From a virus, in the IMG/VR virus record IMGVR_UViG_3300024264_000034, positions 1 to 61,118 of that record: a stretch of DNA of 61,118 bases, one strand, 5' to 3'. The notes under the pieces were generated by a model, which was not told the origin of the DNA, searched no databases, and was given only the letters and a program-made list of their open reading frames with translations. Positions 7,064-45,779 of the stretch are shown in pieces. How positions within the stretch are numbered: the stretch's first letter is position 1; every line of letters starts with the position of its first letter. The position numbers and the translations under genes are program-made.

Positions 7064-7306
7064 TCAACCCTTCATGATATTTAAAAACTTATCAAATGAT
7101 ACTAGGTGCTTTTTCTTCTTTTTCTTTTTCTTCTTTTTAGTAGGCTCTAATAAATCACCGCTTCCGGTTTTTTGGCTACTAAAAGAATTCATAGAACCTG
7201 GGTCACCAGGAAGAGTAGCATTTCCCATACTCTGAACATTCATGTTAGGGTTGAGATTAACAGTACCTGCTTCGTTTTCTTTTATCTTTTTAGGTTGAGG
7301 TTGCAT
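7064..7306 (-). CDS. Small protein with ten-lysine run
   Basis: An 80-residue hypothetical protein. Residues 1-55 are polar and disordered-looking. Ten consecutive lysines follow, coded at 7109-7138 by mixed AAA and AAG codons. The C-terminus, HLVSFDKFLNIMKG, resembles the FxxF pattern of the capsid-targeting-like peptides in neighbouring proteins, but here it is at the wrong end of the protein. A DNA- or RNA-binding role is plausible from charge only. Its ATG lies next to the stop of the NMNAT-like gene, suggesting translational coupling. Confidence 0.6.
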   Translation of the reverse strand: MQPQPKKIKENEAGTVNLNPNMNVQSMGNATLPGDPGSMNSFSSQKTGSGDLLEPTKKKKKKKKKKHLVSFDKFLNIMKG

Positions 7307-7309
7307 TAT

Positions 7310-8878
7310 TTATTTAATGTTTTGTTTCATCCAACGAGTAATCCAGCCTTTAAGTTCTTTTGCTGCTGGTTTAATATCAGAAGGTTCTGTCATTGGTCCA
7401 TTTTTCCATCTGTCCCAATCAGATTGAATTATACCTAATGCATTTGCAATTTCTGGCATTAACTCAATATAATCTTCATTAATTGTAGATTCATATAATC
7501 CGATTATGCCTTCGTCATCAAGTTTTTTATATCCTTTTTTATCTAGCATAGTTAAAACATCATCTACCGTATCATATCCAAGTTCAGAGTCTAACTCATT
7601 GTTACCATCTCCCATAACAGTCCAATCATATATGAATTGCTCCCAGTCATCAGCAGTAACTTCATCTCTTTTATTATAAGTCTTCATAAACGCTTTAACT
7701 ATTGTCTTAGCATCGTTTTCATTAATTACAGATTCATTATAACTAACAATATCAGAATATTTAATTTCATGTTCTCCACCGTCTTGGTCTAATGCAAAAA
7801 TAGTTTTATCACCCCACATCGAATCATTATCATCATTACCATTGCCAAATGCATAAATGACATATTCTTCACCATTACCTAGTTGAATCATACCATCATC
7901 TTTTTTCATAGTCTTTATTAGACTCTTTTTATTAAATTTTGCTTCATTAATACTACTGAAGTCTGTTAGTGATTTTAAATTTTTCATATCTTTATTTTCT
8001 TTTATTGGTTGCATTATATCTTGTAACGGTTTATAAAACTTATGTATACTTTTTGGAGTCATTTTCTTAAAAGTCTTTTCATCATCTATCTTTAATGCAT
8101 TCCTAACTTTAGACGCCGAAATATTTTCTTCACCTCTTTTTATTTCAAAACCTTTAAAGCTTGGATCAACACCTAGATCATCTCTATATGATTGTTTATT
8201 AATCATAGCACCGTAAGATTTCTTTCTATCAGTACCATAACCCCACATCATAGGTTCGTATGTTGGTCTTGCTGCTGCAAACATTGTATCAATTGCACCA
8301 TTAGGAACTACAAAACTTGCTTCTAAAAATGGATATTGTTTTTTCATTTTAGCAAACATAGCTTGTTGCATATCTTCATCAAACGGTCTTTTCTCTGGAT
8401 CGGCTTTACCGCCTCTTACCATATAAACAACAACAGGTAAACCGTTTTCTTTATACATTTTTTCAAATACTTTAACATGACCTAATGTAAAAGGTTGAAA
8501 TCTACCAACAAACATATTTACTGGCTTTTTACCTTTTTCTTTATGGGGTACATTTAATGCTTCATTAAGTATTGTGGTTTTATTTTTTACTCTTAATCCA
8601 TAAGGAGAAAGGGAAAATGTTTTGATTCCTGCTTGATCTTCACTGATATTAAATAAAGTTTTATTTCTACCTAACCATCTTTTATTAGCTCTAAGCTCCG
8701 AAAGAATTTTAGACATTTCTTCTTCAGTAATATGACCGTCTGATATAGCATCTAAAATTACACTTCTGATTCTAGCATTTGTAGATACATTCTTAGCGGG
8801 GTATGCTTCTGTGTATCTTCTCTTTACTACTATCTTCTTTTCATTTAAGAAATTATTTAAATCATTTAAATTATCCAT
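7310..8878 (-). CDS. NMN-adenylyltransferase-like protein with processing-like sites
   Basis: A 522-residue protein. Residues 121-134 (FVGRFQPFTLGH) carry the (H/T)xGH nucleotide-binding signature in the GRFQPF context typical of NadM/NadR-type NMN adenylyltransferases. ISASKVR at 253-259 matches the second ATP-binding motif of that superfamily. The known family reaction is NMN + ATP to NAD+; another nucleotidyl transfer is possible. Outside this domain are an N-terminal peptide (DLNNFLNE), an embedded MKNLKSLTDFSSINE|A at 298-313, and further sites LNE106|A, INE387|N and INE468|D. These resemble T4 gp21 prohead-protease sites and fall between apparent domains. This suggests a packaged, processed protein; the packaging is inference. 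Confidence 0.7.
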   Translation of the reverse strand: MDNLNDLNNFLNEKKIVVKRRYTEAYPAKNVSTNARIRSVILDAISDGHITEEEMSKILSELRANKRWLGRNKTLFNISEDQAGIKTFSLSPYGLRVKNKTTILNEALNVPHKEKGKKPVNMFVGRFQPFTLGHVKVFEKMYKENGLPVVVYMVRGGKADPEKRPFDEDMQQAMFAKMKKQYPFLEASFVVPNGAIDTMFAAARPTYEPMMWGYGTDRKKSYGAMINKQSYRDDLGVDPSFKGFEIKRGEENISASKVRNALKIDDEKTFKKMTPKSIHKFYKPLQDIMQPIKENKDMKNLKSLTDFSSINEAKFNKKSLIKTMKKDDGMIQLGNGEEYVIYAFGNGNDDNDSMWGDKTIFALDQDGGEHEIKYSDIVSYNESVINENDAKTIVKAFMKTYNKRDEVTADDWEQFIYDWTVMGDGNNELDSELGYDTVDDVLTMLDKKGYKKLDDEGIIGLYESTINEDYIELMPEIANALGIIQSDWDRWKNGPMTEPSDIKPAAKELKGWITRWMKQNIK

Positions 8879-8881
8879 ACC

Positions 8882-11800
8882 TTATATATTTGATTCTTCA
8901 ACCTTTGTATTTTTAAACCTTGTTGGTACTGGATTAGATGGTCTTCCAGTTTTTGTAAATCCTATATTAAATTCAAATTTAAGTTTAGCTATAGAATTAA
9001 TACCATCAGTTGTATCTACAGTTGCCTTACCTGTCTTTTTATCAACACCCCAAACTTCATTTGTAAATAATTGTGATTTTACAGTTTCATTATAAGTGTT
9101 AGCATATGCTTTTCCTAAATCATAATAAGCTTCATATTTAGCTCTTAATTCATCTTCATCTAAATCTGGATCCTTTTTCTTTACATAAGCGATTGCGCTA
9201 TTAATAGATTTAGTTTTTCTCTCAACATATTCAGGATCTTCTAAATCAAAATCATACTTTTTAGCAAGATCCTTAATTTCATTAGCGGTCTTTTTAGTAT
9301 CTTCAGCTGTACCGTCAAAAATACCTGAATACATTTTAGTTTTATCTGACATTTTTGCAAGGTCATCTTTGGTTTCCTTTGGTGGAATTTTTTGACCTTT
9401 TGAATTAGTAAATTCTTTGTATTCACTTAACTGTGTTTTTTCACCAGACGCGGACGCGCCACCGGCACCTTTCTTAATTGACCTGGCTTCAACACTGGCC
9501 ATAATTAATTGTATCTTTTTCTGAATTTCTTCTGGTGAATCTTTTTCATAATCAATTTTTTCAGGTGAAATTGAGATAATGTCGCCTAGTGGATAATTAG
9601 AAGCAGCTGGCATATAAACATTATTTCCTTTATTTAATTCTCTCATATAAGAGACCATCTCTACTACATCAGCAGCACCAGTTTTCATATAAGGGTCTAA
9701 CATCATAGCACCAGTAGCAGACATTAACTTTTCATCATATTCTTTTGGGTCTTTAATATCTTTGAGTGATTTAAAATCATTCATTAATTTTTCTTGTGCT
9801 TTAGTAGGTTTCTTATCTCCAAATTGTTTCTTAAATCCGTCAGCTATAATATCAGCAGTGCCGTCTTTTAATTTAGTTCTATTTTCTGGTGTTGTTGGTG
9901 GAGTATCTGGAAATGCTGATAAGGTTTCCATTTCACCTTGGTCTTTAAAAGATTTTTGCGCTTGTTCTACAATGGCATTGTATTTGTTTAATGCAGCTTC
10001 TGCCTTTTCAGCTTCTTTTTTACTACCATATATCTTTTCTAATTTTTCAGTACTAGGTATTTCTTGCTTATCATAATTAACACCATCAAATGAAACTCCC
10101 TTTTCAGATACACCTACTTTAGTTTTAGATTTCTTATCACCGAATAATTTAGCACCAGTCATTTGCTTTTTACCAATACGATTAGCAGATTCTTTATCAA
10201 TATTATCTAAGCCATAATCTTTTGCCACATTAACTATTGAAGCAGGGGAGCTTTTATCACCTAACACTTTTCTATATAAACCAGTTTTTGCTGTATCTAC
10301 ATAAAACTTTGATCCGCTTTGATTTTTCTTAATAATTCCATCTTCTACTAATTCCCCAAATAATTTTTGTTTATCTTCATCAGATGCATTAGGATCATTT
10401 ATAGTTTCCATTGCGGTTAAAACTTTTTCTGCATTTTCTTTTTGGTCCGGATCTTTCACATCGTTTATCTGTTTCTGAATAACATCATTTATTCTAGAAA
10501 GACCTTTTAATTTTTTTGCATCTTCTTCAGGTTCTTTACCACCAACTATTTCTTTTGCCTTTTTATATGCTGGTGTATCTTTGTCATAACCAAGTGCAGA
10601 TGAAACTTTTACTTGTCTTCCTGTTTCTGGATTTTTAAATTTTTGATCTTCAGCATTAGCTTCTATAACTACTTTGCCTAAGTTAATAAATTTATTGTAA
10701 TTAAGAACTTTTTCTTCTACAACCAATTCTTCTAGATCTTTATGATTAACTTCTTCAGCTACTTTATTATTTAAGTATTCTCCGAATGTTGTAAATTCTT
10801 TAGAAGTTTCTTTATTAATGCTATCACTTATTTTAGAAACCATTTTATTAAAATCATCAATTACAGACGCTGTCATAACTGCACCTATTCTTTTAGGATT
10901 TCTTTTCTTTCTTAAAGATCCTAGCATTATTTTATATAAGTTCTTTAATGAATCTGATTTTTGTAAAATTTCTTTAGTCCTACTATTCTTAATTAAGTCT
11001 AAATTTACATCAAACTCAGGCCCTTTTGCAAAATCAGCTTTTTGGATATCTAATTTTTGTAAATCAGTTCCTCTCTTAGATGTATAATCATTAAATAAGT
11101 TATTCACTAATTCCACGTATCTTTCTTGTGGTGTGTTCGTTAGCAATTCACCTGCTCTTAAACCTCTTTCTTCTATAAAAGCTAAGATATCTAACAAAAG
11201 AATTTCATTAATATCCGCAGGAGCTCTTCTTAAATCTACAGGCTCCTTATCTTTCATTAACATTTGAGTATAAGGATCAATCATTTTAGCAGTAAACGTT
11301 TGATTAGTACCTGGTCTAAAAAATTTAAAGATAATTGAATCTATAGGTTTATTTAAATCATTTTGTAAAGTAGTTTTATCAATAGTAGGATTTAAACAAC
11401 CGATTAGATATTTAGCAAATGAGCCTGTACCAAACACTTCCATTTGGTCTTCTCTTGGTGTAGAAAGAAATTCTCTAATCTTTCTTTTTTGTTCTTCTTT
11501 TAAATATCCACTAAATATTGGAATAAGTGGAGTAACTTGAAACGCAGAAGCCCAGTCTCTTAATACCCTAGGATCTTCAATTACTTTAGCAATTTTACCT
11601 TTAGCATTTTTTACTTGGATATGAGTTAAGATTAAATTATTAGCAGGAAGATTATCATATTTAATAGCCCCTGGTTGGTTATGAACAAAATACTGAAAGC
11701 AAAATCTCCAATGATCTGGTAAATCTTGTATATGCCCTTCTGTTTGTTTAAGTATGTATTGGATTGCCGGTTCATAATACATCATTAGTGTTCGGTCCAC

Positions 11801-11971
11801 TATATTGATAGGCATTTTGCTATTGCCTTTAAAAAATTGTATTTGGTCTCCATGCTTCTCAAATGCAAAAGACGATCCGGATAGTTTTTCGGTCACTAGC
11901 AAATAATCTTTAAATAGATCATTTACGAATTGTTGCCCTACTTCTTTATATATGTTTGTTAACTCTTTCAT
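8882..11971 (-). CDS. Large protein with N-terminal ligase-like nucleotidyltransferase domain
   Basis: A 1029-residue protein. TEKLSGSS at 27-34 resembles motif I (KxxG, nucleophile K29) of covalent nucleotidyltransferases. WRFCFQYF (88-95) could be motif III, IDSIIFKFF (210-218) motif IV and TAKMIDP (227-233) motif V, in the right order and spacing for an ATP-dependent DNA/RNA ligase fold of about 240 residues. The remaining 780 residues are Lys/Glu/Asp-rich, largely helical or disordered, with no domain I recognise. The glutamate usual in motif IV is Asp, so activity is uncertain. It follows a terminator and its own promoter-like box and precedes the NMNAT-like gene by 3 nt. Confidence 0.6.
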   Translation of the reverse strand: MKELTNIYKEVGQQFVNDLFKDYLLVTEKLSGSSFAFEKHGDQIQFFKGNSKMPINIVDRTLMMYYEPAIQYILKQTEGHIQDLPDHWRFCFQYFVHNQPGAIKYDNLPANNLILTHIQVKNAKGKIAKVIEDPRVLRDWASAFQVTPLIPIFSGYLKEEQKRKIREFLSTPREDQMEVFGTGSFAKYLIGCLNPTIDKTTLQNDLNKPIDSIIFKFFRPGTNQTFTAKMIDPYTQMLMKDKEPVDLRRAPADINEILLLDILAFIEERGLRAGELLTNTPQERYVELVNNLFNDYTSKRGTDLQKLDIQKADFAKGPEFDVNLDLIKNSRTKEILQKSDSLKNLYKIMLGSLRKKRNPKRIGAVMTASVIDDFNKMVSKISDSINKETSKEFTTFGEYLNNKVAEEVNHKDLEELVVEEKVLNYNKFINLGKVVIEANAEDQKFKNPETGRQVKVSSALGYDKDTPAYKKAKEIVGGKEPEEDAKKLKGLSRINDVIQKQINDVKDPDQKENAEKVLTAMETINDPNASDEDKQKLFGELVEDGIIKKNQSGSKFYVDTAKTGLYRKVLGDKSSPASIVNVAKDYGLDNIDKESANRIGKKQMTGAKLFGDKKSKTKVGVSEKGVSFDGVNYDKQEIPSTEKLEKIYGSKKEAEKAEAALNKYNAIVEQAQKSFKDQGEMETLSAFPDTPPTTPENRTKLKDGTADIIADGFKKQFGDKKPTKAQEKLMNDFKSLKDIKDPKEYDEKLMSATGAMMLDPYMKTGAADVVEMVSYMRELNKGNNVYMPAASNYPLGDIISISPEKIDYEKDSPEEIQKKIQLIMASVEARSIKKGAGGASASGEKTQLSEYKEFTNSKGQKIPPKETKDDLAKMSDKTKMYSGIFDGTAEDTKKTANEIKDLAKKYDFDLEDPEYVERKTKSINSAIAYVKKKDPDLDEDELRAKYEAYYDLGKAYANTYNETVKSQLFTNEVWGVDKKTGKATVDTTDGINSIAKLKFEFNIGFTKTGRPSNPVPTRFKNTKVEESNI

Positions 11972-12092: not shown

Positions 12093-12416
12093 TTAAGATA
12101 CATCCATATAATCACCGTGGTCGCATGCTATACCCTTTCTAGTTAATTCTTTACAAATTTTATCTAGAGTACCATCTTCATAATACATAGGTAATGTTTC
12201 CTTTATCCCTAATGATGACAGTAGAGATTCAGTAGCATCATAACCTATCTTTGATCTTTTATTTACATTTGCAGTTTTCTTTACATCGTATAAAGAGGTT
12301 CCATAAAATCTACCTCGATCTGTATATACAAAGTTAATCCCTTTTATATTAAAAGGCTTGCCTGCTCTGTCAACATATCTACTACCTTCGTTTATAAATT
12401 CATTAAAGTTTTTCAT
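12093..12416 (-). CDS. Small protein with capsid-targeting-like N-terminus
   Basis: A 107-residue protein of unknown fold. It begins MKNFNEFINE|G, which closely resembles the ten-residue capsid-targeting sequence of T4 internal proteins (IPIII begins MKTYQEFIAE) and ends in a gp21-type cleavage context. The mature part would be a basic-to-neutral small protein (DRAGKPFNIKGINF...). It sits next to another small protein of this type, stop and start almost touching, and ends at a terminator. The likely role is an internal head protein; this is inference from the peptide. Confidence 0.65.
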   Translation of the reverse strand: MKNFNEFINEGSRYVDRAGKPFNIKGINFVYTDRGRFYGTSLYDVKKTANVNKRSKIGYDATESLLSSLGIKETLPMYYEDGTLDKICKELTRKGIACDHGDYMDVS

Positions 12417-12417
12417 A

Positions 12418-12786
12418 TTATGCTAATTTAGATTTACCATCCCAGACCTTTACAATATAATCTTTACCATCCTTTTCTAAATATCTTGGATCTTGTTTAG
12501 TAGGTCTCATTAATAATCCGTGCGATCTTTGGCCTCTCCCATGTTTACCTTTTCCCATATCATATCCTCTCTTTGCCATCCAATCAGATCCTCCAGAAAA
12601 GTAAGAAGCGAAATAACCTCGGTTTGATCTGTCATTAGGATCTAAACCTTTATGCTTAACTATTAAGTTTTGTAAATCTTTCCATTTAGATTTGCCATTC
12701 TTTTCAGCATAATCCAATACCATTTTTTTAATAGTGTCCATATCCTTTGATTCATTAAGGGATTCATAAGTATGTAAGTGTTCCAT
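12418..12786 (-). CDS. Small basic protein with processing-like N-terminus
   Basis: A 122-residue protein starting MEHLHTYESLNE|S, similar to the peptides of neighbouring genes. The rest is basic and rich in Gly, Lys and Arg (GKGKHGRGQRSHG near residue 80), as expected for something that contacts DNA. It is preceded by an 87-nt spacer with a TATATAAATA string and abuts the 107-aa gene. A DNA-associated internal head protein is plausible but unproven. Confidence 0.6.
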   Translation of the reverse strand: MEHLHTYESLNESKDMDTIKKMVLDYAEKNGKSKWKDLQNLIVKHKGLDPNDRSNRGYFASYFSGGSDWMAKRGYDMGKGKHGRGQRSHGLLMRPTKQDPRYLEKDGKDYIVKVWDGKSKLA

Positions 12787-12873: not shown

Positions 12874-14145
12874 TTATCTACCAAATTTAATTATACCCAT
12901 TAATTGATTAATTGCAGCAAAAGTACCAGTAAGCTTATAGATCTTACCTTTATATTTAAATACAATACCTTCCGTTGGAAATATTGATTCTATACCACCA
13001 ATACGACTTAGCCTTGCAAGCTCAGCTTCAACTTTTTTAACTTGTTCTACGCCGCCTGTCTTTTTAATCTTACTTGCTTGAGTTTCAATTTCTTTTCTTA
13101 GTCTTTGTGCTTCACCTGATGGATTAGCAGCTAAGAAGTTAGAAGCATTTTTCATAATGATAGAACCTAGCTCTAAAAACAGATCTTCAAATGGTCTAAT
13201 GTTTTCTTTATACTTTTTAGCAACATCTTCTTTATCAAACTTCTTAACTAGTGCAGCTTCATTAGGACCAACTTGTTTAGCTAAAGATCTCATGTTTAAA
13301 CTCTTCTTATCACCGTATGCCCATCTTCTAAGTAAACCTTCTTTAACGTCCTGAGATAGAGTTGGAAATTCTTTATCTATTAATTCTCTCCACCACATTT
13401 CATGATATCTTGAAACTTCATCACCGTCGTTTAAACCATATCTTTTTTCTAAAGCATTAACTTGATTAATAAACTTTTTCTTATTTGCAGTAAAATCTAA
13501 ATCTCTTTGTAATTGAATTACTTTAGGCGGTATAATTTTAAATGTTTTACCAATATCAGCCTTTACCTTTTGAAGTATATTTGTTATTTCTTTTGCAGGT
13601 TTATTATTTGTACCTATGATATTACCTTTACCATCTGTTTCTTTTATCCCATGAAATTGTATAACATCTCTATCATAATGAATAACGTTTGGATTCAATG
13701 AATAGATTAGTTCCATATTCATAAAATCTTTTCCATTCTTAAAATACTTTTCTTGATCTGCTGGTGAAAGTTTTCTTAATAGCTTATCTAAATCTCTAGC
13801 AGCCAAGATAAATGTTTCTTCAACTAGCTTTGATGCATGTCCTGTAAACATATCAATGGTACCATTAAGATCTAGAGGGTTTGCCATTTGACCTTTATTT
13901 CTAGCAAATTTTACTTTACCATCTTGGATAGTTACAAATAAGTTTTGCCCGTCAGTTTTTTCTGTAGGATCTTCTTCAAAGTTTAACTGTCCCCTAAGAC
14001 CAGCATCAACCATTGCTTTAAAATCACCAAAGGTTAACTCTTTATTATCAAATGGATGCTGCATATGACCAGCTGCACCACCTTCAAACAAAAATGGCTG
14101 ACTTTTGTCAGTCAGCCACTCTTCAAACAATTTTATATGTTTCAT
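12874..14145 (-). CDS. DNA/RNA ligase-like nucleotidyltransferase with capsid-targeting-like N-terminus
   Basis: A 423-residue protein. TEKTDGQN at 61-68 is a good motif I (KxDG, nucleophile K63). MNMELIY (E145) fits motif III, VIQFHG motif IIIa, EGIVFK (392-397) motif IV and KIYKL (401-405) motif V. This is the covalent nucleotidyltransferase core of ATP-dependent ligases and capping enzymes. About 180 mostly helical residues separate motifs IIIa and IV, which is unusual. The N-terminus MKHIKLFEEWL...PFLFE|G resembles T4 capsid-targeting/processing peptides. The substrate is unknown. It shares the TEK motif I context with the 1029-aa protein nearby, so the two may be paralogous. Confidence 0.7.
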   Translation of the reverse strand: MKHIKLFEEWLTDKSQPFLFEGGAAGHMQHPFDNKELTFGDFKAMVDAGLRGQLNFEEDPTEKTDGQNLFVTIQDGKVKFARNKGQMANPLDLNGTIDMFTGHASKLVEETFILAARDLDKLLRKLSPADQEKYFKNGKDFMNMELIYSLNPNVIHYDRDVIQFHGIKETDGKGNIIGTNNKPAKEITNILQKVKADIGKTFKIIPPKVIQLQRDLDFTANKKKFINQVNALEKRYGLNDGDEVSRYHEMWWRELIDKEFPTLSQDVKEGLLRRWAYGDKKSLNMRSLAKQVGPNEAALVKKFDKEDVAKKYKENIRPFEDLFLELGSIIMKNASNFLAANPSGEAQRLRKEIETQASKIKKTGGVEQVKKVEAELARLSRIGGIESIFPTEGIVFKYKGKIYKLTGTFAAINQLMGIIKFGR

Positions 14146-14159
14146 TTAGTTTGTTTTTA

Positions 14160-15701
14160 TTATGATCCCATAGTAGATTGTAAAGCTCCAACCATTGCTC
14201 CATAGTCTTCACCATACTTATCAATTAAACCATCAGCAGTTTCAGTTGCTTTAGTTTCATCAAAGTCATCTCCGAATGCATCTTTTAACATTTTCATTGC
14301 ATATTCTTTAAATTGATCAGCAGATTTAATTTCAGCTTCATTTACTTTACCTAATTTATTATTAGCAAGCTTTCTGAACTTTTCAGCAATTGAATCATCG
14401 GCTAATACTTCTTCCTCTTCTTTAACCAGTGGAATTTCGATACCGTCCTCAGATACATCGTTTGGTGAATCAGGAATTACTTCAGTAACCTTTTGATCTG
14501 GTGTAATTAATTCTTTACCTTTACCTTCAACATTTTTAGGTTTACCTCTTTCCATTGTATCTCCTGCAATACCTGCAGCAGTTTCTGGCCCGTCACCTTT
14601 AATTACAGGAATTGCAATTCCATCATCTCCGGCAATTTCATCAGCAATTTCATCACCTTCAACTTTAGTAATTACTTCGCCAATAGCTTCTTCTACAGAT
14701 TCTTCTTTCTTATCATCTTCATCTTCAAAATCTTCACCATCATGTGTTTTAGATTTGTCGCCTTTGTTTCCACCTAACACAACTCTGTCATAAGCCTCAT
14801 TTACAAAGGATGAGAAAGACATAATTTTAGATTCATTTTTATCTTCTTCTTCTTTGTCGTATTCAACATCTTTCTTTAGAGCATCTATTTCTTTATCATC
14901 AGATTTAACAGCCCCTTTATAATGGTCAGCTTTTTCTTTGTCATCTTCAGAATCAACTTTCTTATCTCCTTTATCTTCTAATTCATCACCTTCTTTTTCA
15001 TCTTCCATACCTTTGGCTTCTTCACCTTCAGCAAGAGGATCGGCAGAGGCTGCCATAGGAACAGCATAATCTTCAGGCTCCTCATCGTCATCATGATAAG
15101 AAATGTTTTTATTAATAGTTTCTTCTTTTTCTTTAATGAAATCTTCAAAGGCCATTATTCTTCTAGTAGCTTTTGGAGTTTCTTCTTCTTCTGAAGCAAC
15201 ATCAACACCGTCCTCATCCTCGACCTCATCGGCTTCAGCTGGAACTTCTGCTGTAATTTCTTGATCATCAGAAACTTCTTCACCTTCTTTATCTTCTAGA
15301 GATTTAGTAGCACCAATTTTATTTACTTCGTCTTCGATATCTTCAGCAGTATCTTCTTCAACTTCAGCAACTTCAGAATCAGTAGCAACAACTTCTTCAT
15401 CACCTTCTTTATCTTTGGTACCTTCTAGTGATTTAGCTTTACCTTTGACTTTCATTTCATCTTCAATATCTTCAGCTCTGTCTTCTTCAACACCATCCTC
15501 AGATATATCATTACTTTTAGCAAATGTCTTAGACATTGCTTCGAGTTTAGAAAGAAGATCTTTCTCCTTCTTTAACTCTTCTATACTGTCAAAACCAATC
15601 TTTTTGATCAATTCATCAACAGCTTCTTTTGTTACTTTTGCAGACTCATTGATCGGTTGATCTTTTGCAGTCATAGCAGAAAACTTTTTGATTGACTTCA
15701 T
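14160..15701 (-). CDS. Highly acidic repeat protein with several capsid-targeting-like peptides
   Basis: A 513-residue, very Glu/Asp/Lys-rich protein. It starts MKSIKKFSAM...QPINE|S. Comparable peptides recur internally: MAFEDFIKE at about 183-191 and MSFSSFVNE|A at about 294-303, plus VNE|A near 455. Residues about 73-105 and 117-145 are an imperfect duplication (both contain AEDIEDE and KSLE). The C-terminal 55 residues (from SADQFKEYAMKML) look like a compact helical domain. Charge and peptides fit a prohead-core or internal scaffold-type protein, but I cannot assign it to gp22 or gp67. It is the first gene of the internal-protein cluster. Confidence 0.6.
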   Translation of the reverse strand: MKSIKKFSAMTAKDQPINESAKVTKEAVDELIKKIGFDSIEELKKEKDLLSKLEAMSKTFAKSNDISEDGVEEDRAEDIEDEMKVKGKAKSLEGTKDKEGDEEVVATDSEVAEVEEDTAEDIEDEVNKIGATKSLEDKEGEEVSDDQEITAEVPAEADEVEDEDGVDVASEEEETPKATRRIMAFEDFIKEKEETINKNISYHDDDEEPEDYAVPMAASADPLAEGEEAKGMEDEKEGDELEDKGDKKVDSEDDKEKADHYKGAVKSDDKEIDALKKDVEYDKEEEDKNESKIMSFSSFVNEAYDRVVLGGNKGDKSKTHDGEDFEDEDDKKEESVEEAIGEVITKVEGDEIADEIAGDDGIAIPVIKGDGPETAAGIAGDTMERGKPKNVEGKGKELITPDQKVTEVIPDSPNDVSEDGIEIPLVKEEEEVLADDSIAEKFRKLANNKLGKVNEAEIKSADQFKEYAMKMLKDAFGDDFDETKATETADGLIDKYGEDYGAMVGALQSTMGS

Positions 15702-25445: not shown

Positions 25446-27986
25446 TTAAATTGTTTCCCAACCGCTAACTCCTCCCTGTATTATAGGGCCGGAATCAGAT
25501 ACTATTACCCAACCCCATTGTGTTTTAGTTATCGCTTTATTCTCTTGTGTTGTTGAACTCAGATTCCTTCCTTCGTTGGTTGATGTTGCACCATCCCATA
25601 TTAAATCTAAAGTTCTTACCATTGAAGCACCGGCATTGGCGTGTGACGCAGTGGTAGTCGTATCTATTGTATGGAAACCATCATACATCAGAAAATTTCC
25701 AGTACTGAACCAGCTAGTATAAGGGGCTGTAGACGGTATAGCTATCCTATATCTAGGAAACATTATTCTTACTGTTCCAAAATATTCTAATGTCTCAAAG
25801 GTTCCTGGGATTCCTTTTGTTTCTTGAGTCCATTTTGTTGCTTGATTTTTAATTACTACAGTAAGTTTTTGTCCAGGATACAGTCCTGGGGCAAAATTAA
25901 AGTTACCTAAGTAACCCTGTTGCCCAAGACTACCACCACCTCCTAGATTATTATCATACCCTATCTTAACTCCGAAATTTAAGAAAAGCAAAGGCCTATT
26001 AAGTTCTGAAGTCAAAGGCATTGCTCCTGCTGTTGGATACGAGCTGGAAAATGTAGGTACCGCATTGATTAAATCCCATCCAAAATTATATGGTGCAACA
26101 GCAGAGCCATAATCATAAATCGGAGCATTATTTTGCGTACTATTTGTGTTATTATCTCTCTTATGTACCAATGTTCCTGCAATAGCAGTTTTATTTTCAC
26201 TAGCTGAAAAGTATTCGTTATACTCATTAAAAGATCTTACACTTATTCCTAATGAATTATCCCACGCGCCAAATCCATACGATCCAACTGGGCTTGTTGG
26301 TCCTTCATTCCCCAGTCCTATTCTAATCATTCCTGCAGATACTCCTGATATTGTTTGAGTACCACCTAACCATTCATGCATACTTGCTCCTGGTGCCATA
26401 TCTATTAAATTGGCATCTCCCGTTTTAACAAAAACAGAGGAACCGGTTGTCAATGCACCATCCACATTATTATATTGGTAAGTAGTAGCATTAGGAGGGA
26501 CTGTATCGCTGCCTAATCCTGACTTTGACCAAGTACTGTGTCCAACAAACCTAGTATGTGGTAAAAGTGGTTTAGTAGGATCGCCATTTGTATAATAATT
26601 ATAATCCATGACTATACTAGTATTAGCTAAGGCCGAAGATTGTTCATTCATTATTCTTATTTGACTATTTCCTCTAATATAAATATCACCACCTACATCT
26701 GGATTACCTGCTGGTGGAAGCTGCCTTAGATTTTCTATAAAAATATCTGCAGTGCCATCAATTTTACTTTGCTGTATTGTAATATTACCATCAGCTGATG
26801 TTGCTAATATTCCACCTGTAGCTGATCTTAATTGAATTTGTCCAGCAGGACTAGTTCCTTGTGTAGTATCTAATTTTAATTGCCCACCTGAATTTAATTG
26901 AATATTTTGATTTACAGATGATGTTAAATTAATTAAACCTGCCTGTAATTGTATAACACCAACTTGCGCGTTTTGTGCTAAGTTAACAGGAAAACCGCCA
27001 CCTGTCTGGAGAACCGTTGTGTTTACCGTACCTGCTGTAGTTAATACAAATTTGTTTCCTGCAGCATTTGAACCACTACCTACATCAATAAGAAAGTCTG
27101 AATTTTCACCACCAAAAGCTGCTGTATTTTCAATTCCTGTTTGGAATGTAATTGCTTTACCTGCAGTATATTGTTGAGATCTTTTTGGAACATTAACCTC
27201 AAAGCCTATTACTTGATTAAGATTTAGTGCACCTGTTGCTTGTTTTGTTGCTGATAAGACTAGTCTATCATCATTACTAATTCCAATGCTACTTAATTGG
27301 CTTATATCCACTTGTTCAAATCTCTCAGGATTACCTACCGTATAACCGCCATGAAATATTATTCCTCTGGCCGTTGCATCTTTCTGATGAATCATTAATG
27401 ATGCCGCTGGTGTATTCAACGTTGTGGCTATAGCATCAGGTATTATATAGGAAGAAGTTAAAGGTATACTGGGGTCAACAAACGGTGTATTAGAAACTGC
27501 ACCACCAATCATAACCGAAGGTACTCCTTCATTTGAAAGATCTGCACCGTTACCAAATCCGATAGTTCCATTATACACAGCAGTCTGTTTAGATATTTGG
27601 ATTGGTCCTCCAAAGTCTAATCCAAAACCACCACTCTGACCGTCAGGTCCAATAGGCCCCATTAGATCTATTGTTGTTATAGCCCATGTTAATCCAGTGT
27701 ATTCCCATACTTGCCCATTAAATTGCAAATAATAATCGCCTTCGAGTGGTGTGCTTGTAGGTGGTGCAACATTAGGACTAAGACCTGGTGCAATTATAGA
27801 AACATCTTCATACCAAGTAGTTCCTTTTGGTCCTCTACCTCCGAGAGGTCCTACAGGACCGATAGGGCCAGCTGGCCCTGCGGGCCCTCCACCATTAAGT
27901 AACAATTGATCAAAATTAAAATTAGTTTTATCGACCAGTTGTGAAATAGTATCCGATGCTATTATTTCTTGTATAGTGATTGGCAT
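25446..27986 (-). CDS. Baseplate-associated fibre with short collagen-like patch
   Basis: An 846-residue protein. The N-terminus (ITIQEIIASDTISQLVDKTN, then FNFDQLLLN) resembles the start of the 216-aa protein at 38830-39480 (VTEILGTDSLSG...NFNVL), so both may use the same docking peptide. A GPAGPIGPVGP collagen-like patch (about 35-50) is followed by long beta-helix-like Asn/Gln/Ser/Thr-rich sequence (NITIQQSKIDG, IYIRGNSQIRIMN) and a compact C-terminal domain. This suits a long, trimeric tail fibre or spike. The receptor is unknown. Confidence 0.7.
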   Translation of the reverse strand: MPITIQEIIASDTISQLVDKTNFNFDQLLLNGGGPAGPAGPIGPVGPLGGRGPKGTTWYEDVSIIAPGLSPNVAPPTSTPLEGDYYLQFNGQVWEYTGLTWAITTIDLMGPIGPDGQSGGFGLDFGGPIQISKQTAVYNGTIGFGNGADLSNEGVPSVMIGGAVSNTPFVDPSIPLTSSYIIPDAIATTLNTPAASLMIHQKDATARGIIFHGGYTVGNPERFEQVDISQLSSIGISNDDRLVLSATKQATGALNLNQVIGFEVNVPKRSQQYTAGKAITFQTGIENTAAFGGENSDFLIDVGSGSNAAGNKFVLTTAGTVNTTVLQTGGGFPVNLAQNAQVGVIQLQAGLINLTSSVNQNIQLNSGGQLKLDTTQGTSPAGQIQLRSATGGILATSADGNITIQQSKIDGTADIFIENLRQLPPAGNPDVGGDIYIRGNSQIRIMNEQSSALANTSIVMDYNYYTNGDPTKPLLPHTRFVGHSTWSKSGLGSDTVPPNATTYQYNNVDGALTTGSSVFVKTGDANLIDMAPGASMHEWLGGTQTISGVSAGMIRIGLGNEGPTSPVGSYGFGAWDNSLGISVRSFNEYNEYFSASENKTAIAGTLVHKRDNNTNSTQNNAPIYDYGSAVAPYNFGWDLINAVPTFSSSYPTAGAMPLTSELNRPLLFLNFGVKIGYDNNLGGGGSLGQQGYLGNFNFAPGLYPGQKLTVVIKNQATKWTQETKGIPGTFETLEYFGTVRIMFPRYRIAIPSTAPYTSWFSTGNFLMYDGFHTIDTTTTASHANAGASMVRTLDLIWDGATSTNEGRNLSSTTQENKAITKTQWGWVIVSDSGPIIQGGVSGWETI

Positions 27987-27996
27987 TTCTTTTCTA

Positions 27997-30900
27997 TTAT
28001 TTTTTAACTATTGTGACGCTGAACCCATACGATTCAGAGAAACCTGTTCTTTTATTATATATTAGCTTTAAATCAAATGGGTTTGTATTTAAAGTTTTTG
28101 ATGCTACATTATTGTTAATAGTTAAACCATTATTAATTTTTTCTGCATCAGTTAATTCAGCTGTGGTATAATTAGGTGGATTTTTAATTCTACTTGCTAA
28201 ACTATAAAATTCTACTTTTTCTATTTTATAAAGCTTTAGAATATTTTCTCTTATATATTGTTCTACATCATCATCCAAAGTTTCCAAATCACCCCAACCG
28301 TATAAAGGATTAATGTATTTTTGAAATTGTTCTTTTATTGGTGTAAATAAGTATTCTATTAATCTTTTTTCATTTAATAAGAAAAATGTTTCTATTGGAG
28401 ATGAAGGCTTTTTCTTAATAGCCTTAACTTGTTTTACTCCATTAGATTTAATAATTCTTTTATTTATCTTTACTGAAGGTTGATCAAGATACATAAAAGT
28501 ACCATCTATTAAGCTTGGTTGTTTTATTGCGCCTTTAACAAAAGGGCTCGGTTTAAATGTTTCTAATTTTATAGTTTCAGGAACTTTAAGATATTTAGAT
28601 CCAAAAAATGATTTACGCTCAAACATTGATCGTGTACCTATAATATTTTGTATCTGAGACTTGTCAATACTTTTTATAAAATATGAAGGTTCCCAGTTAG
28701 ATGAAAATATATAAAAATCTTTATAATCAATACCTATTTCATTAATAAGAGGATATAAACTTGAAAATGCACTTTCACTAGATAACTCTAAAATAGTTGA
28801 AGGATCTTCTTCATTTACTTTATGATAAAAGAAATTTTGAATTTGCCCAAATTCTGGATCTGAACTGTTAAACTGTGAATTTTTAAATTTACATAATTCC
28901 ATTACTTTTATTTTATATGCTGCATCTGGAATAAGTACACTACCAGTCCCACCCGTTACTTCTTCAAAATCTAAGTTTTGATAAGGGTCTCTAAATGATA
29001 GTAAAGGTAATGCATAAGGTTCATAATACCCCGCATGCCTAGCTATAGGAGTTATTCTCGGAGTCTTTTGTAAAGATAAGTCATATCCTACAACATCAGT
29101 TAAATTAAACGCTGTTGGTTTTACTGGGTCAGGTAATATACCTACATAAATAGATTTTAATATATCAGCCTGTGCTCTTAATTCAATACTAAATGTTTGT
29201 GCTAATGTACCATCAGTATTTCTAACCTGAGTACCATCTTCTGTTATTGTTTCATATACAATAGCAGGATTACCTTCATTAACTGAGTCAAAAATTTCAC
29301 CAAAAGAAATATTATTTAATGAATTAGAAAATTGTTGATAACCACCGTTTTGGATTGTATAGGTAGCACTTCTTAATACTGCATCACCAGGTGATGATGA
29401 AGGTAGTGCCATAGGAAACCCATTCTGTGTAAACGTAGATGCTTTAAATGTATCAGAATCTAAAACATCTACAATTCCTGTAATTTGATATACATTAGTC
29501 CCAATTCCAAATTTAATATTTCCAAATGTACCATCTTCCAAAACTCTAATATCATTTACAAAGTTTGTAGGAATTCCATTTATATCAGGTTGCCCTTTTA
29601 TTATATAAATTCCATTTGAGTCGATTGAAGATGAATTCAGCGAAAGAGCACCACTTATATTTAGAGATTTGTATAAATAACCGCTAGCAGAATTGTATTG
29701 TGGTGAACAATCTGAGTTTAAATCAAAATTACTATTTAAAGAATATAGGCTTGTCCTATCTATTATTGGTGCACCTGCGTTAAGACATTCTACATCATAC
29801 TGAATAGACACTAACATTACTATAGTTTTCCATTTTTCATTTTTTATAAACTTAATTTCTAATTCAGGCTTGTCTGGTAGATTAGGAACTAACATTACAG
29901 AAAATCTATAATCATTAATTGAACCATCTTGTACATATGATAGTGAAGATGCATTAAAATTAGGTTTTTGTGACCCTATTGCTTTAGGTTTTGCTATAAT
30001 TCTAACCCCTCTTAAAAATGTTTCAGAAAAATTGTTTTCATTTCCGCCAGCAAACCTACCGTATCTAAGCTGTCTATCAATTTCATTTATAGTACCACCT
30101 GCAGTGAATCTTTGTACAATAAAATAATCATTAAAATAATTAGTATTTATATCTTGAAAGGTACCAGGTACATAAACTTGACCAGTAACTGGGTTAGCAT
30201 TAATACTATCAGTAGCCGCTTTATCAACATAACTCCAGGAGCTTTTAATTGCAGCATTGTTAGTTAAAAAATATTTTGGAAACTCAGATAAGTAATACCA
30301 TTCATGAGTAAACCCACTAGATTCTTGAACTTTGTCCCATTTAGAAGGGGCGAAATTATTTATACCAAATGCTTCATTAACATCTAACCTATATGGATGA
30401 TTTCTTACATCTTTACCATTATTAACCCAAGCCCATTTATTTATATAAGGTGCAATTCTAGACGCAGCTGCCTGCGAAGTTATAAAATTTTCTTCGAGCC
30501 TATTGTATTCACTCTTTATATACTCATCATTAGGATTCTGGTCTTCGGCATCATTTAATAAACCAATAAGATTATAAAAGCCACCATTATCATAAAAATT
30601 TCTAATATTTGGATTCTTACTTACACCAGTGTAATCAACAAACGGTGGTGTAGTACTATAAGGTTGGACCGCATTAGCAACAAGTTGGTTGTATTCTGCT
30701 AATTCAAAATTAAGTTCGCCTTCTTCGCTATATAAAGTACTATAAAAATCAAAATCAAAATCCTTAACCTCAAAAAATGAAAATCTACCAAACGAAGGTT
30801 TATAATCTGAATACAGAGCTACTTGGTTAGACCTAGTAACCATTATTTGATTATCGTTGCATGTAATTATTGCATACTTATCAATATCCGTATATCCAAT

Positions 30901-32724
30901 TATTTGATCTAAGCCATCATAAATAGGTTCATCGGTATAAGGAACCCAATCACCTATTTCAGTATACCCACCAGTAGTCTGTACAAAATTACCTTTCACA
31001 AATCTTTCTTGGTCTCCTAATGTAACTTTAAGTAAACTATTCTTCGTGTCGTTGCCTCCTACAAAGTTTTTATCTGGTAGGGCTAATGATGTGGCAGGAT
31101 ATGTTTCCAATTGTTGAAATTGTTCTGGAAATGAAATATCCATCTTAAAATTTAACCGATTAAATCTAGTTCCACTAAACCTTGATTTTACATAAACTGT
31201 TGTATCATTATAGGATGCTACAAAAAATCTATCATTTTCATTTATTCCTTTATTAATAGCTGATGTTATCGATTGAGTAACTTCCTGTAATGTTCCGTTA
31301 GGATTAAAAAATCTTTCAAAAGATTTACCGGGAATAGTGGCCATTGTGCTATCTGCAAATATCTCTCCAGTAAAATTAACCCCATCATAAAATGATATCT
31401 TACTTCCTTCTTCAACATTATCTAATACTTTAATATACATTTGGGAAATCCCGGCTCTGTTTAGGATACTTGCATTTGCAAATGTATCCGGGTCTTTATA
31501 TCCAGTAAATAAAGATATGTCTACTTTTGTATCAAATAATCTTATTTGATCCTTATTCCATGTAGATCCTTTTTTAATTGTGTGAAAGTCATCTTCTTTA
31601 TCTTTAACATAAAAAATAGATTCTACTTCATCAACTCTTTGCGGTGTGGGCAAGCCTGTAATTGTTTCAGTTTTTAAAGGATCTAAATATAGTAATATGC
31701 CATTTTTATTTGTTAGCTCCAATGGTGTATTTAAAAATTGGGAAACTTCGGTTATGCTTGTTATTACAGGCTGTTGGGTTTTTTCTGTTGATGTTCCTTT
31801 ATAAAATGCTTCTCCCGATATATCAAACTTTCCTTCTTCAATATCATTAACATACATACCAAAATATCTATTAATAGAATAATCATCAGCAGTAGGATCA
31901 TCAAACAAAAATTCCATATTTAATAAGTTAGCTAAGATAATACCATTATTCTGAAAACCCTGTGTAAATAGATACTCATCTTGCATAATAGTAGAATCTT
32001 TAACCACCATATCTTTATACGCAAAGTTACCAGAACTTGTAAATCCACCACTCTTGTAAGATATACCATTCCATAAAATAGGTTCATCTTTTCTCCATGT
32101 CATATTAAGAGGAACTTCTGGAAAGTTTTCTTGGTTTCTATAATTTCTAATATAAGAACCTAGTACAGTTCCTTCTGTTAAATCAAAAGTTTTAATTGCA
32201 GTACAATTCTCTAAAACATTTTTATTAAAATCAACTGAAGTTTGTGCACTTGCAGTATTTTCATTTTGACTAGGAGCTCTAAAATTATTAACTGCTGCTG
32301 GGTTATCTAATCTAAAAACTACGAAATAGTTTGGAATTTGTTCATTTAACCATAACGGGGCAAGAGTACCTAAACTTTGCGGATAACTAGTAGATGCTAC
32401 AGATCTAGTCCCTGCACAGTAAAACATTTCATATTGATTACCATACTTAGATAAAACTGAAGTATCTTCATATTCTTGAAATATTTCATATGCAGCCTCA
32501 ATAGGAAATTTACCAAAATCAAAAAATCTAAAAACATCTTGATCATAGGTACTAGTACCATCAACTTTAAATGCTTTAAATTTTTGTGAAGATAGTCTTG
32601 TATTTGCACTAAAAGATTCTAGGTAAATATCTGTGCCATCAGACACAACCTTTACATTAGCAGTCAATTTAGGATTAGTTCTAACTAAACTGTATGATGC
32701 TTTATCGAATAAGTTTTCAGCCAT
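27997..32724 (-). CDS. Giant baseplate-periphery protein
   Basis: A 1575-residue protein, the largest in the window and larger than any T4 baseplate protein. It starts MAENLFDKASYSLVRTNPKL and is aromatic- and Asn-rich throughout, with no transmembrane or enzyme motif recognised. The last 150 residues contain a helical segment (FFLLNEKRLIEYLFTPIKEQF). It sits between the 1299-aa protein and the collagen-patch fibre, so it probably belongs to the baseplate rim or fibre network. It has its own promoter-like box. Homology would need profile searching. Confidence 0.65.
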   Translation of the reverse strand: MAENLFDKASYSLVRTNPKLTANVKVVSDGTDIYLESFSANTRLSSQKFKAFKVDGTSTYDQDVFRFFDFGKFPIEAAYEIFQEYEDTSVLSKYGNQYEMFYCAGTRSVASTSYPQSLGTLAPLWLNEQIPNYFVVFRLDNPAAVNNFRAPSQNENTASAQTSVDFNKNVLENCTAIKTFDLTEGTVLGSYIRNYRNQENFPEVPLNMTWRKDEPILWNGISYKSGGFTSSGNFAYKDMVVKDSTIMQDEYLFTQGFQNNGIILANLLNMEFLFDDPTADDYSINRYFGMYVNDIEEGKFDISGEAFYKGTSTEKTQQPVITSITEVSQFLNTPLELTNKNGILLYLDPLKTETITGLPTPQRVDEVESIFYVKDKEDDFHTIKKGSTWNKDQIRLFDTKVDISLFTGYKDPDTFANASILNRAGISQMYIKVLDNVEEGSKISFYDGVNFTGEIFADSTMATIPGKSFERFFNPNGTLQEVTQSITSAINKGINENDRFFVASYNDTTVYVKSRFSGTRFNRLNFKMDISFPEQFQQLETYPATSLALPDKNFVGGNDTKNSLLKVTLGDQERFVKGNFVQTTGGYTEIGDWVPYTDEPIYDGLDQIIGYTDIDKYAIITCNDNQIMVTRSNQVALYSDYKPSFGRFSFFEVKDFDFDFYSTLYSEEGELNFELAEYNQLVANAVQPYSTTPPFVDYTGVSKNPNIRNFYDNGGFYNLIGLLNDAEDQNPNDEYIKSEYNRLEENFITSQAAASRIAPYINKWAWVNNGKDVRNHPYRLDVNEAFGINNFAPSKWDKVQESSGFTHEWYYLSEFPKYFLTNNAAIKSSWSYVDKAATDSINANPVTGQVYVPGTFQDINTNYFNDYFIVQRFTAGGTINEIDRQLRYGRFAGGNENNFSETFLRGVRIIAKPKAIGSQKPNFNASSLSYVQDGSINDYRFSVMLVPNLPDKPELEIKFIKNEKWKTIVMLVSIQYDVECLNAGAPIIDRTSLYSLNSNFDLNSDCSPQYNSASGYLYKSLNISGALSLNSSSIDSNGIYIIKGQPDINGIPTNFVNDIRVLEDGTFGNIKFGIGTNVYQITGIVDVLDSDTFKASTFTQNGFPMALPSSSPGDAVLRSATYTIQNGGYQQFSNSLNNISFGEIFDSVNEGNPAIVYETITEDGTQVRNTDGTLAQTFSIELRAQADILKSIYVGILPDPVKPTAFNLTDVVGYDLSLQKTPRITPIARHAGYYEPYALPLLSFRDPYQNLDFEEVTGGTGSVLIPDAAYKIKVMELCKFKNSQFNSSDPEFGQIQNFFYHKVNEEDPSTILELSSESAFSSLYPLINEIGIDYKDFYIFSSNWEPSYFIKSIDKSQIQNIIGTRSMFERKSFFGSKYLKVPETIKLETFKPSPFVKGAIKQPSLIDGTFMYLDQPSVKINKRIIKSNGVKQVKAIKKKPSSPIETFFLLNEKRLIEYLFTPIKEQFQKYINPLYGWGDLETLDDDVEQYIRENILKLYKIEKVEFYSLASRIKNPPNYTTAELTDAEKINNGLTINNNVASKTLNTNPFDLKLIYNKRTGFSESYGFSVTIVKK

Positions 32725-43922: not shown

Positions 43923-45779
43923 TTATTTTCCTTTTAATGCTTTTAGTGTTGGGTTATTTTGTAACCTTCCAGTGTTTAATCCTGCTGAGTTTGCACCAGT
44001 AGCAATTGTAGTTCCTCTGTTTCTTTTAGTGTTATTATATTTTTCTTGTTGTATTTTATTATAAAGATTATTTGCAATTGCTTCTTTATAGAATACATTA
44101 AGGGAACTTATTTTATTAGCTTCAGGTATAGGCTCATAGTAAGTACCACTTCTATCTTTCCAACCACCTCTTATAATTGCTATATCATTATTTTCAATAA
44201 TCACATCCCCAAAACTGTCTAATCCTAATTGCGGATCTTCGCCTTTCTTTAATACAATTTTTTTATTCTCAATTAGAACTCTTTGGTCAGTCACAGGATC
44301 TGTTCCATACACAGGTATAAAGTAAAAACCATCTCTTATTGCCTGCTCATTAACTTCTGATATAAAAAATACGTTTACAGAATCAATACCTTCAACGTTT
44401 TCAATTATTGAAATAATATCTGATCTAGGTATTCTATCTCTCCTATTTACATTTAAGAAGTATTCATCTAAATTTTTTCGTATTTCAATTCTTATAGAAT
44501 CTTTATCATAATTATCAAACCATCTTATTACTATATTAAGAGCATACCTTTTAATAGTCGGATCCACTATTCGAGTTTCAGCAGTAACTACTTGCCTTCC
44601 ACTTTTATTTAATATTTCATAAGTCATTTCTTTCTCTTGTGTACTCATTGTAAATTCTACCTCAGGTACACTAAAATAATCTAAATCACTTGTTAATTTT
44701 TTCTTAATGTCTGGAATTAGGAAAAGGTAAATAATATTATCATCATCTAAATATTCATCATTCTTTGTATTGTAAGCATCTATAAAAGACCAGAAATCAT
44801 ACTTACTTAAATAGTAAATATAATTATTAGGATTAGCTAACACAAATGAATTACTTGCATACGGTGCAATTAATCTAGTAAACTGAGGGTCTTCTGAATC
44901 AGAACCAAACATAGGATTTCTTGTAATATTCATTGCAAGTATTTCATTTAAATCTACCTGCTCACCTGATGAATCTGTTCCAGGGTCTATAAATTTTATA
45001 TCTAATTGCTTTCCTCCAATATTACCTGCCGAACCTCTAGTTTTAATATAAGTAACTTTTATTCTGGAACCTAGTGGTGGTGGATATCCAAATTGATTAT
45101 TTCCAAAAAATACACTTAATCCTCCATTAACGCTTGATTTAACCATTGCAGCCTTATCTCCATTATTCATATCATATATAGAATCTTCTAATTTCCATAA
45201 TTCACCATCTACAAAAACCTCTACTAAATATTCATCGGTTGGTTCTTTTGTGCTTAGATTATAACTTTGTAATGGGTTGCCGCTTCCTGTAAAGGATTGA
45301 TCCTCTTTTTCCCCTTGTATAACTTCAACATTAACAAAAGACTTATTAGTTTTATCTAATCTAATAAAGTCACTATTAAATCTTAAAAAATATTGTAATC
45401 CGTTTTGTCCAATTTGAAAAGGTAAACCGTTCATAATTTGTACGTAATCACCATTAAGAAGAGTAGCAGCACTTGTATTTAATCTTAATCCGATAATACC
45501 TCTTGCTGATATACCTCTTGTTGGGTCATGGCCAGTTAACCTAGATAAGCCATAGATAGATTCAATGTTTCTTGCCCTAGATATATTCATTTCTGTAGCA
45601 ACGGCTTCTATATAAAAGAATATCATTTCACCTAAGTTAGAAACAACAGTTAGTATTTGTCCAAACGGTGAAGCCGGCGTAAACACCTCAACTGATTGAT
45701 CATATGTACGCTGGAGATAATCAAATGAATCTTGAAATAACTCCGTGGCTTTTAATCTTGTTTTACTAAAAAATGACAT
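43923..45779 (-). CDS. 6: Baseplate wedge protein gp6 (baseplate J-like)
   Basis: A 618-residue protein, close to T4 gp6 (660). The start (FFSKTRLKATELFQDSFDYL), the segment RARNIESIYGLSRLTGHDPTR and the later IEIRKNLDEYFLNVNRRDRI and IPRSDIISIIENVEGIDSV match the baseplate-J/gp6 pattern. gp6 forms the dimeric ring that links wedges around the hub and changes shape when the sheath contracts. It lies immediately after gp25, the conserved order. The C-terminal 60 residues are basic and disordered. Confidence 0.88.
   Translation of the reverse strand: MSFFSKTRLKATELFQDSFDYLQRTYDQSVEVFTPASPFGQILTVVSNLGEMIFFYIEAVATEMNISRARNIESIYGLSRLTGHDPTRGISARGIIGLRLNTSAATLLNGDYVQIMNGLPFQIGQNGLQYFLRFNSDFIRLDKTNKSFVNVEVIQGEKEDQSFTGSGNPLQSYNLSTKEPTDEYLVEVFVDGELWKLEDSIYDMNNGDKAAMVKSSVNGGLSVFFGNNQFGYPPPLGSRIKVTYIKTRGSAGNIGGKQLDIKFIDPGTDSSGEQVDLNEILAMNITRNPMFGSDSEDPQFTRLIAPYASNSFVLANPNNYIYYLSKYDFWSFIDAYNTKNDEYLDDDNIIYLFLIPDIKKKLTSDLDYFSVPEVEFTMSTQEKEMTYEILNKSGRQVVTAETRIVDPTIKRYALNIVIRWFDNYDKDSIRIEIRKNLDEYFLNVNRRDRIPRSDIISIIENVEGIDSVNVFFISEVNEQAIRDGFYFIPVYGTDPVTDQRVLIENKKIVLKKGEDPQLGLDSFGDVIIENNDIAIIRGGWKDRSGTYYEPIPEANKISSLNVFYKEAIANNLYNKIQQEKYNNTKRNRGTTIATGANSAGLNTGRLQNNPTLKALKGK

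Follow-up and report, generated by a model that had tools for sequence, protein, structure and literature searches.

Can a single viral gene deliver an enzyme and several small proteins into a phage head as one chain? This question is raised by an open reading frame (ORF) encoding 522 aa at 7310-8878(-) of the viral record IMGVR_UViG_3300024264_000034, from which the whole stretch of 61,118 nt analysed here, called the window, was taken. Our findings favour, with a probability of about 0.68, a modular internal-head polyprotein of a marine T4-like phage that would be recruited by capsid-targeting sequences (CTS) and cut by an S77 protease, and whose enzyme would be kept and injected.

Architecture of the 522-residue protein

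The protein was divided into the following segments.

8840..8878 (-): residues 1-13, N-terminal capsid-targeting-like peptide MDNLNDLNNFLNE|K
8561..8839 (-): residues 14-106, module N, mobile, with the C-terminal end LNE106|A
7988..8560 (-): residues 107-297, predicted NMNAT-like/cytidylyltransferase-fold nucleotidyltransferase core (PF01467, phrog_3041, TIGR00125)
7943..7987 (-): residues 298-312, embedded capsid-targeting-like peptide MKNLKSLTDFSSINE|A, kept in relatives
7718..7942 (-): residues 313-387, module A, beta-rich, also seen in numerous further phage proteins
7475..7717 (-): residues 388-468, module B, without counterpart in the close relatives L001-L008
7313..7474 (-): residues 469-522, module C, helical (DYIELMPEIANALG...), a free gene elsewhere

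Five L/I-N-E sites were found, namely LNE13|K, LNE106|A, M298KNLKSLTDFSSINE312|A, INE387|N, and INE468|D. The initial annotation had described an NMNAT-like enzyme arranged like a processed polyprotein, and the nucleotidyltransferase motifs GRFQPFTLGH (125-134) and ISASKVR (253-259) as well as the sites 106, 312, 387, and 468 all lie at the positions that it gave. Its four sites and the joints of modules A, B, and C were retained, whereas LNE13 at the end of the N-terminal targeting-like peptide, the mobile module N (14-106), and an RNA-ligase-fold partner gene had been overlooked.

The N-terminal peptide resembles the T4 CTS, and the embedded peptide at 298-312 shares its M-K/D-N-L style. In T4, ten-residue CTS peptides target proteins to the head, and gp21 cuts after L/I-X-E (PMC9026906). 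The ORF carries an N-terminal peptide ending L/I-x-E of the kind found in T4-type internal head proteins, a likeness that is one of sequence. As with T4 IPI-III and Alt, which have a CTS and are processed by gp21, there is a short MK-x-x-F-type peptide ending L/I-x-E and an S77 protease, and entry into the prohead core would be expected. The T4 proteins are one cargo each, whereas here one chain combines an enzyme with at least three exchangeable modules and a second targeting peptide inside.

Exchange of modules and their link to the prohead core

Scanning IMG/VR yielded 33 relatives; when the scan was repeated with the alignment, a set of 50 loci was obtained that overlaps with these 33. Close relatives were constant from residue 1 to about 300 and variable in the tail. 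Its composition was as follows.

Window: A-B-C
L001-L008: A-C
L061: B-C
L009, L014-L017, L019, L021: a different module, then C
L010-L012, L020, L022, L026-L029: C directly
L024, L171/L176-L179: further modules
L025, L030: tail absent, ending after the embedded peptide
L187: tail absent, ending after the core

Across about 50 related viral loci, nearly all of the tail exchanges were located at [LIV]NE|. In L061, module B stands directly behind the CTS as ..SVINE|NDAKTIV.., and the truncated L062 ends within module B. Furthermore, modules A, C, and N each recur in unrelated phage proteins; a free module N, a 116-aa protein that has a targeting-like peptide of its own, was observed in L048, and L064, L077, L078, L082, and L098 have the module as part of other polyproteins. 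A search of the phage collection gave no match for modules A and N.

Other cargo domains follow module N in place of the NMNAT-like core in L077 (10380-11978), L078 (3036-5810), and L082 (4092-5810); in L077, this combination sits at the same place behind the ligase-like gene.

The genes upstream of the polyprotein gene in the window include the following candidates, of which the last four are assigned from sequence and synteny in relatives.

10661..11971 (-): RNA-ligase-fold domain (TEKLSGSSF motif), residues 1-437 of ORF 8882-11971, with the end VVIE437|A followed by a variable tail
12093..12416 (-): small protein with a CTS-like start, MKNFNEFINE|G
12418..12786 (-): small protein with a CTS-like start, MEHLHTYESLNE|S
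12874..14145 (-): second ligase-like candidate (KTDGQNLF) with an N-terminal CTS-like peptide, MKHIKLFEEWLTD
14160..15701 (-): acidic prohead-core (gp22-like) candidate with three [LIV]NE sites

The last module of about 60 aa of the prohead-core candidate recurs at the end of polyproteins of 684-891 aa. No recognised head gene (protease or capsid) was found in the 61-kb window fragment. A related contig of 181 kb (G001) holds a 90%-identical, truncated copy of the gene (L031) together with an S77 prohead protease and gp23 in the same virus. This protease and a long scaffold-like tail form a fusion, and both INE|A and LNE|S lie close to the start of the gp23 precursor.

An S77 protease fused to a long C-terminal part that is repetitive and scaffold-like was also seen in L122 (1438-3156), L123 (1432-3180), and L124 (1429-3342), at 573 to more than 638 aa; judging from this fusion, protease and core scaffold are therefore one polypeptide in that lineage. 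On the other side of the polyprotein gene, a small protein at 7064-7306(-) has a segment, NPNMNVQSMGNATLPGxPGSMN..TGSGD, in common with the N-terminal part of gp23, the G001 major capsid protein; for close relatives, the match covers 46 aa at about 70% identity (E 3e-13). It ends with poly-lysine and the CTS-like LVSFDKFLN, and its full form in relatives begins with MPAQSKAQRRFFALAL.

In the Flavobacterium phage immuto, module C is the small gene gp069 (76-aa class) between the prohead protease and the gp22-like/gp23 genes. L055 and L057 have a free module C about 1 kb after S77, and in L103, L106, and L107 one ORF of 775-872 aa directly upstream of this protease contains both A and C. Because A and C adjoin or sit near the S77 protease in relatives, the modules are tied to the prohead core. 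The polyprotein-like architecture that had been proposed for the gene is thus well supported: the sites coincide with module joints, modules are swapped there and occur free, the protease is present in the same virus group, and modules lie in the prohead-core cluster.

We infer from this architecture cleavage, retention, and injection in the following order. The targeting peptides 1-13 and 298-312 would bring the entire chain to the prohead core. Cutting by the S77 (gp21-type) protease after [LIV]-x-E at 13, 106, 312, 387, and 468 would follow, and the head would then contain module N, the NMNAT-like nucleotidyltransferase, and modules A, B, and C as free proteins. Like T4 Alt and the IP proteins, the enzyme would remain with the DNA and be injected into the host, perhaps together with some of the small modules. 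The enzyme would probably work alongside the neighbouring RNA-ligase-fold protein, its fusion partner in relatives.

As for the small modules, they may serve as cargo or be sacrificial parts of the core. Because they are linked to the prohead core, it is a serious rival reading that N, A, B, and C are prohead-core segments like T4 gp22/gp67/gp68, which are cut and expelled, only the enzyme core or nothing being retained. The position of the module C gene in immuto, adjoining the protease and the gp22-like gene, and the large prohead-core ORFs with A and C next to S77 are in line with such a role, and in T4 the core proteins are fragmented and for the most part removed (PMC9026906). However, the modules are 54-93 aa long, conserved, and have few internal sites, unlike the multiply cut gp22, and they are joined to enzymes, which scaffold segments need not be. 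We consider a purely sacrificial role possible but somewhat doubtful.

Under the favoured reading of a polyprotein with an injected enzyme, each ingredient has a known parallel. Searches of open-access papers on jumbo-phage NAD enzymes, capsid-targeting sequences, and polyproteins of phage heads gave no description of strings of exchangeable modules at prohead-protease sites. We see about even chances that a group of marine T4-like phages has a general head-loading cassette system, in which small modules and enzymes are strung behind a CTS and swapped at prohead-protease sites, one protease thereby serving a changing injected payload. If this holds, the loading of heads with enzymes by genuine polyprotein processing, with cassette joints that can evolve at protease sites, would be shown for DNA phages, and a sequence rule of a CTS plus [LIV]xE joints would predict injected phage proteins. 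It would also represent a natural design for bringing several cargoes into a capsid from one gene, and the cyanophage virion NMNAT-like proteins, long noted but unexplained, would gain a targeting mechanism.

The nucleotidyltransferase core and its RNA-ligase-fold partner

The core scored above the cut-off against PF01467 (7e-7, 29.9 bits vs gathering 21) and TIGR00125 (29.4 vs 27.7 bits), and it matched phrog_3041 (2e-14) and phrog_395, both named 'cytidyltransferase'. These profiles assign it to the HxGH/cytidylyltransferase-like nucleotidyltransferase superfamily. Archaeal NMNAT models were the best among the named enzyme families in 21/21 aligned members, all below the cut-off; the curated NMNAT cut-offs (TIGR01527, PRK01153, and TIGR00482) were missed, with 23.3 vs 127 and 17.8 vs 181.2 bits for the window protein. 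GRFQP is the archaeal NMNAT form of the motif, and an alignment with 1f9a showed the correspondence. In a structural ranking on a low-confidence model, PPAT (Z 8.9), NMNAT (Z 8.2), and NadD (Z 8.2) were tied, and Foldseek and VIA-align did not separate NMNAT from PPAT on this weak core model. The enzyme had initially been taken for an NMNAT; NMNAT models do match best, but far below their cut-offs and with a structural tie with PPAT, so that NMNAT-like is a best guess and not a membership.

The partner gene, ORF 8882-11971, was constant to about residue 436 and variable beyond VVIE437|A. Its ligase-like domain was modelled by AlphaFold2 with a pLDDT of 69.8, and Foldseek matched the model to T4 Rnl2 (2hvr, E 3e-6) and Rnl1 (3e-4). 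The KxxG nucleotidyl-lysine motif is present as EKLSGSSF, with K29 invariant, and a profile search of PDB and Pfam gave no sequence-level ligase match. The model thus points to a ligase fold for the N-terminal domain, a candidate RNA ligase.

In LR756500, L184, L186, and L188, the core is preceded by the RNA-ligase-fold domain and not by module N. The ligase-core joints have the form xE|AL[TRN], being VSE|ALT, VSE|ALT, and ITE|ALR in L184, L186, and L188 and a divergent TFE|ALN in LR756500. The E|AL boundary of the core is kept with either upstream partner, module N in the window group or the RNA-ligase-fold domain; the NMNAT-like core moves as a unit.

The proteins of L184 (2693-5533), L186 (2684-5644), and L188 (2720-5545) are single chains of 942-987 aa consisting of the RNA-ligase-fold domain, the NMNAT-like core, and a third domain. 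A Pfam search gave no match for this third domain of about 330 aa (GIGRGEIMLAYI..GGGSQDIDL), which may be nuclease-like.

Polyvalent proteins (Iyer et al. 2017, PMC5512222) are phage chains of several disparate biochemical domains, conflict-related enzymes among them, for which injection and release by proteolysis are assumed. RNA-ligase-fold and NMNAT-like domains stand in one chain in L184, L186, L188, and LR756500, which may be a comparable case. A built-in metallopeptidase, seen in some of them, was proposed as the processing enzyme of the polyvalent proteins (PMC5512222), whereas a separate prohead protease and short boundary motifs would serve here; no Pfam peptidase was matched in the window protein or in L184, L186, and L188.

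Homologues of the core are known from cyanophage virions. T4-GC190, a homologous cyanophage cytidylyltransferase (phrog_3041/395), was detected by mass spectrometry in purified S-SM1 virions (PMC3037559), and NMNAT/cytidylyltransferase-like proteins occur in the virions of S-SCSM1, S-CBWM1, and S-CREM2 (PMC9602691 and PMC10665884). We found that the S-SM1 gene product starts with the capsid-targeting-like MKKFSAFLNE|AERS, the peptide ending LNE|A, and the homologues of S-SSM5, S-SM2, P-SSM2, and S-CREM1 have similar starts with F-L-[TS]-E. The available portions of the virion literature on S-SM1, S-SCSM1, S-CBWM1, and S-CREM2 do not report this targeting peptide. T4-GC190 thus shares with our protein the homologous core, and its start L-N/T/S-E|A is CTS-like; however, it is about 27% identical, has other N- and C-terminal domains, and is not called a polyprotein in the portions of the literature available. 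By analogy, virion carriage of the protein of this phage is likely.

What the enzyme would do in the host was considered next to its partner. We infer NMN/NaMN as the substrate, and NAD+ rescue at injection, to which the initial annotation had given a role against NAD+-depleting defences, would be plausible. The phage NAD+ salvage pathway NARP2 (NAMPT + NMNAT) shares the NMNAT-like fold with our candidate, and a NAMPT gene was found in 1/13 records searched, the distant LR756500, the 12 other related records being fragments. NARP2 is expressed, whereas the candidate here would be virion-borne. The NAMPT-family protein (PF04095, 6e-60) is encoded at 45016-45591(-) of LR756500.1, a 462-kb uncultured distant relative with the ligase-NMNAT fusion.

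The nucleotidyltransferase may instead be a virion enzyme other than NMNAT whose role, together with the RNA-ligase-fold partner, would be RNA repair or other adenylylation and not NAD+ synthesis. RNA repair or adenylylation has to be entertained because of the steady partnership with the RNA-ligase-fold protein, both conserved neighbour and fusion partner and similar in fold to T4 Rnl2, and because the cyanophage homologues adjoin KWDG proteins of DUF6267. The missed equivalog cut-offs and the tie of PPAT, NMNAT, and NadD agree with this assignment, but the archaeal NMNAT models as best matches in every aligned member and the GRFQP form of the motif speak for NMNAT; we hold the alternative as a tentative one.

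Proposed cutting at the module joints

In LR756500, the NMNAT-like gene stops ahead of the embedded peptide, and an independent targeting-like peptide, MEFVKTYLEFINE|Q, opens the gene that follows. Given this gene split, the embedded MKNLKSLTDFSSINE is most readily explained as what was once the start of a separate small head protein, now joined in frame. The same split gene would also fit separate production of the small tail proteins from an internal start at Met298, which would make the locus two overlapping in-frame genes and not a pure polyprotein. A Shine-Dalgarno sequence was seen in only 2/42 window genes, and the A-rich leader of Met298, kept in most of 18 relatives, resembles real starts. 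However, relatives have an uninterrupted frame across the joint even with indels, which are 3-nt multiples, and L025 and L030, which have no module after site 312, yet retain the peptide in frame; an additional internal start is unlikely.

The rarity of Shine-Dalgarno-like sequences at gene starts of the window, together with the A-rich leaders, suggests a Bacteroidota host.

Returning to the polyprotein that we favour, five [LIV]NE motifs were observed in the 522-aa protein vs 0.49 expected from shuffles of the same protein, an enrichment of about tenfold (P about 5e-5). The tail ORF 27997-32724 is likewise enriched (8 vs 1.5), and because of this the motif count by itself is weak evidence; we rejected motif counting alone as proof of processing. 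Conservation and module boundaries are far stronger evidence. In the alignment of 21 relatives, E13, N105-E106-A107, E312, and N467-E468 were invariant amid variable linkers, as was F10 of the N-terminal peptide. P3 was I, L, or V at the sites. The hydrophobic P3 of site 312 was missing only in L025 and L030, in which no module follows to be released; these two are closely related, so that this loss counts as one observation. Furthermore, [LIV]xE, sought within six residues, was present at the module start in 67/71 distinct contexts (A 21/23, C 23/25, N 23/23) vs 11-15% expected from random windows of the same proteins; close relatives are included, and the figure is therefore descriptive rather than a count of independent cases.

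The motif is insufficient for cutting because conserved copies sit in apparently folded parts, namely ITE52 of ORF 7310-8878 and INE256 of ORF 8882-11971, both probably uncut. Indeed, automatic splitting of all polyproteins at every [LIV][NT]E over-splits folded domains and gives only a rough view. In the full-length AlphaFold2 model (pLDDT 45.5), all five sites are in weak segments, from which exposure is not readable. It is nevertheless very improbable that the chain remains whole as an ordinary multidomain fusion, in which [LIV]NE would be a mere linker habit, since high motif counts in unrelated ORFs such as 27997-32724 would allow this but the motif at 67 of 71 module joints, the T4-type protease and CTS context, and the modules found free behind the same motif contradict it.

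Collagen-like GPQGPQG or GPAGPIG repeats were observed in the tail-region ORFs 60076-61116(-) and 25446-27986(-).

Processing of many inner head proteins is known from phiKZ and SPN3US, where a gp21-related protease cuts after x-x-E, as proposed here. In contrast, the available portions of that literature describe long propeptides and not exchangeable module strings, give A/S-x-E as the motif, and report no NMNAT-like core. In another lineage, the Methylophilales phage Melnitz-1 encodes a cytidylyltransferase with a C-terminal module (L040, 4944-6896) that is a separate gene in the Pelagibacter phage HTVC008M (L137, 5740-6141); the joints are MME|S and LEE|A, and the same fuse-or-split pattern was thus observed.
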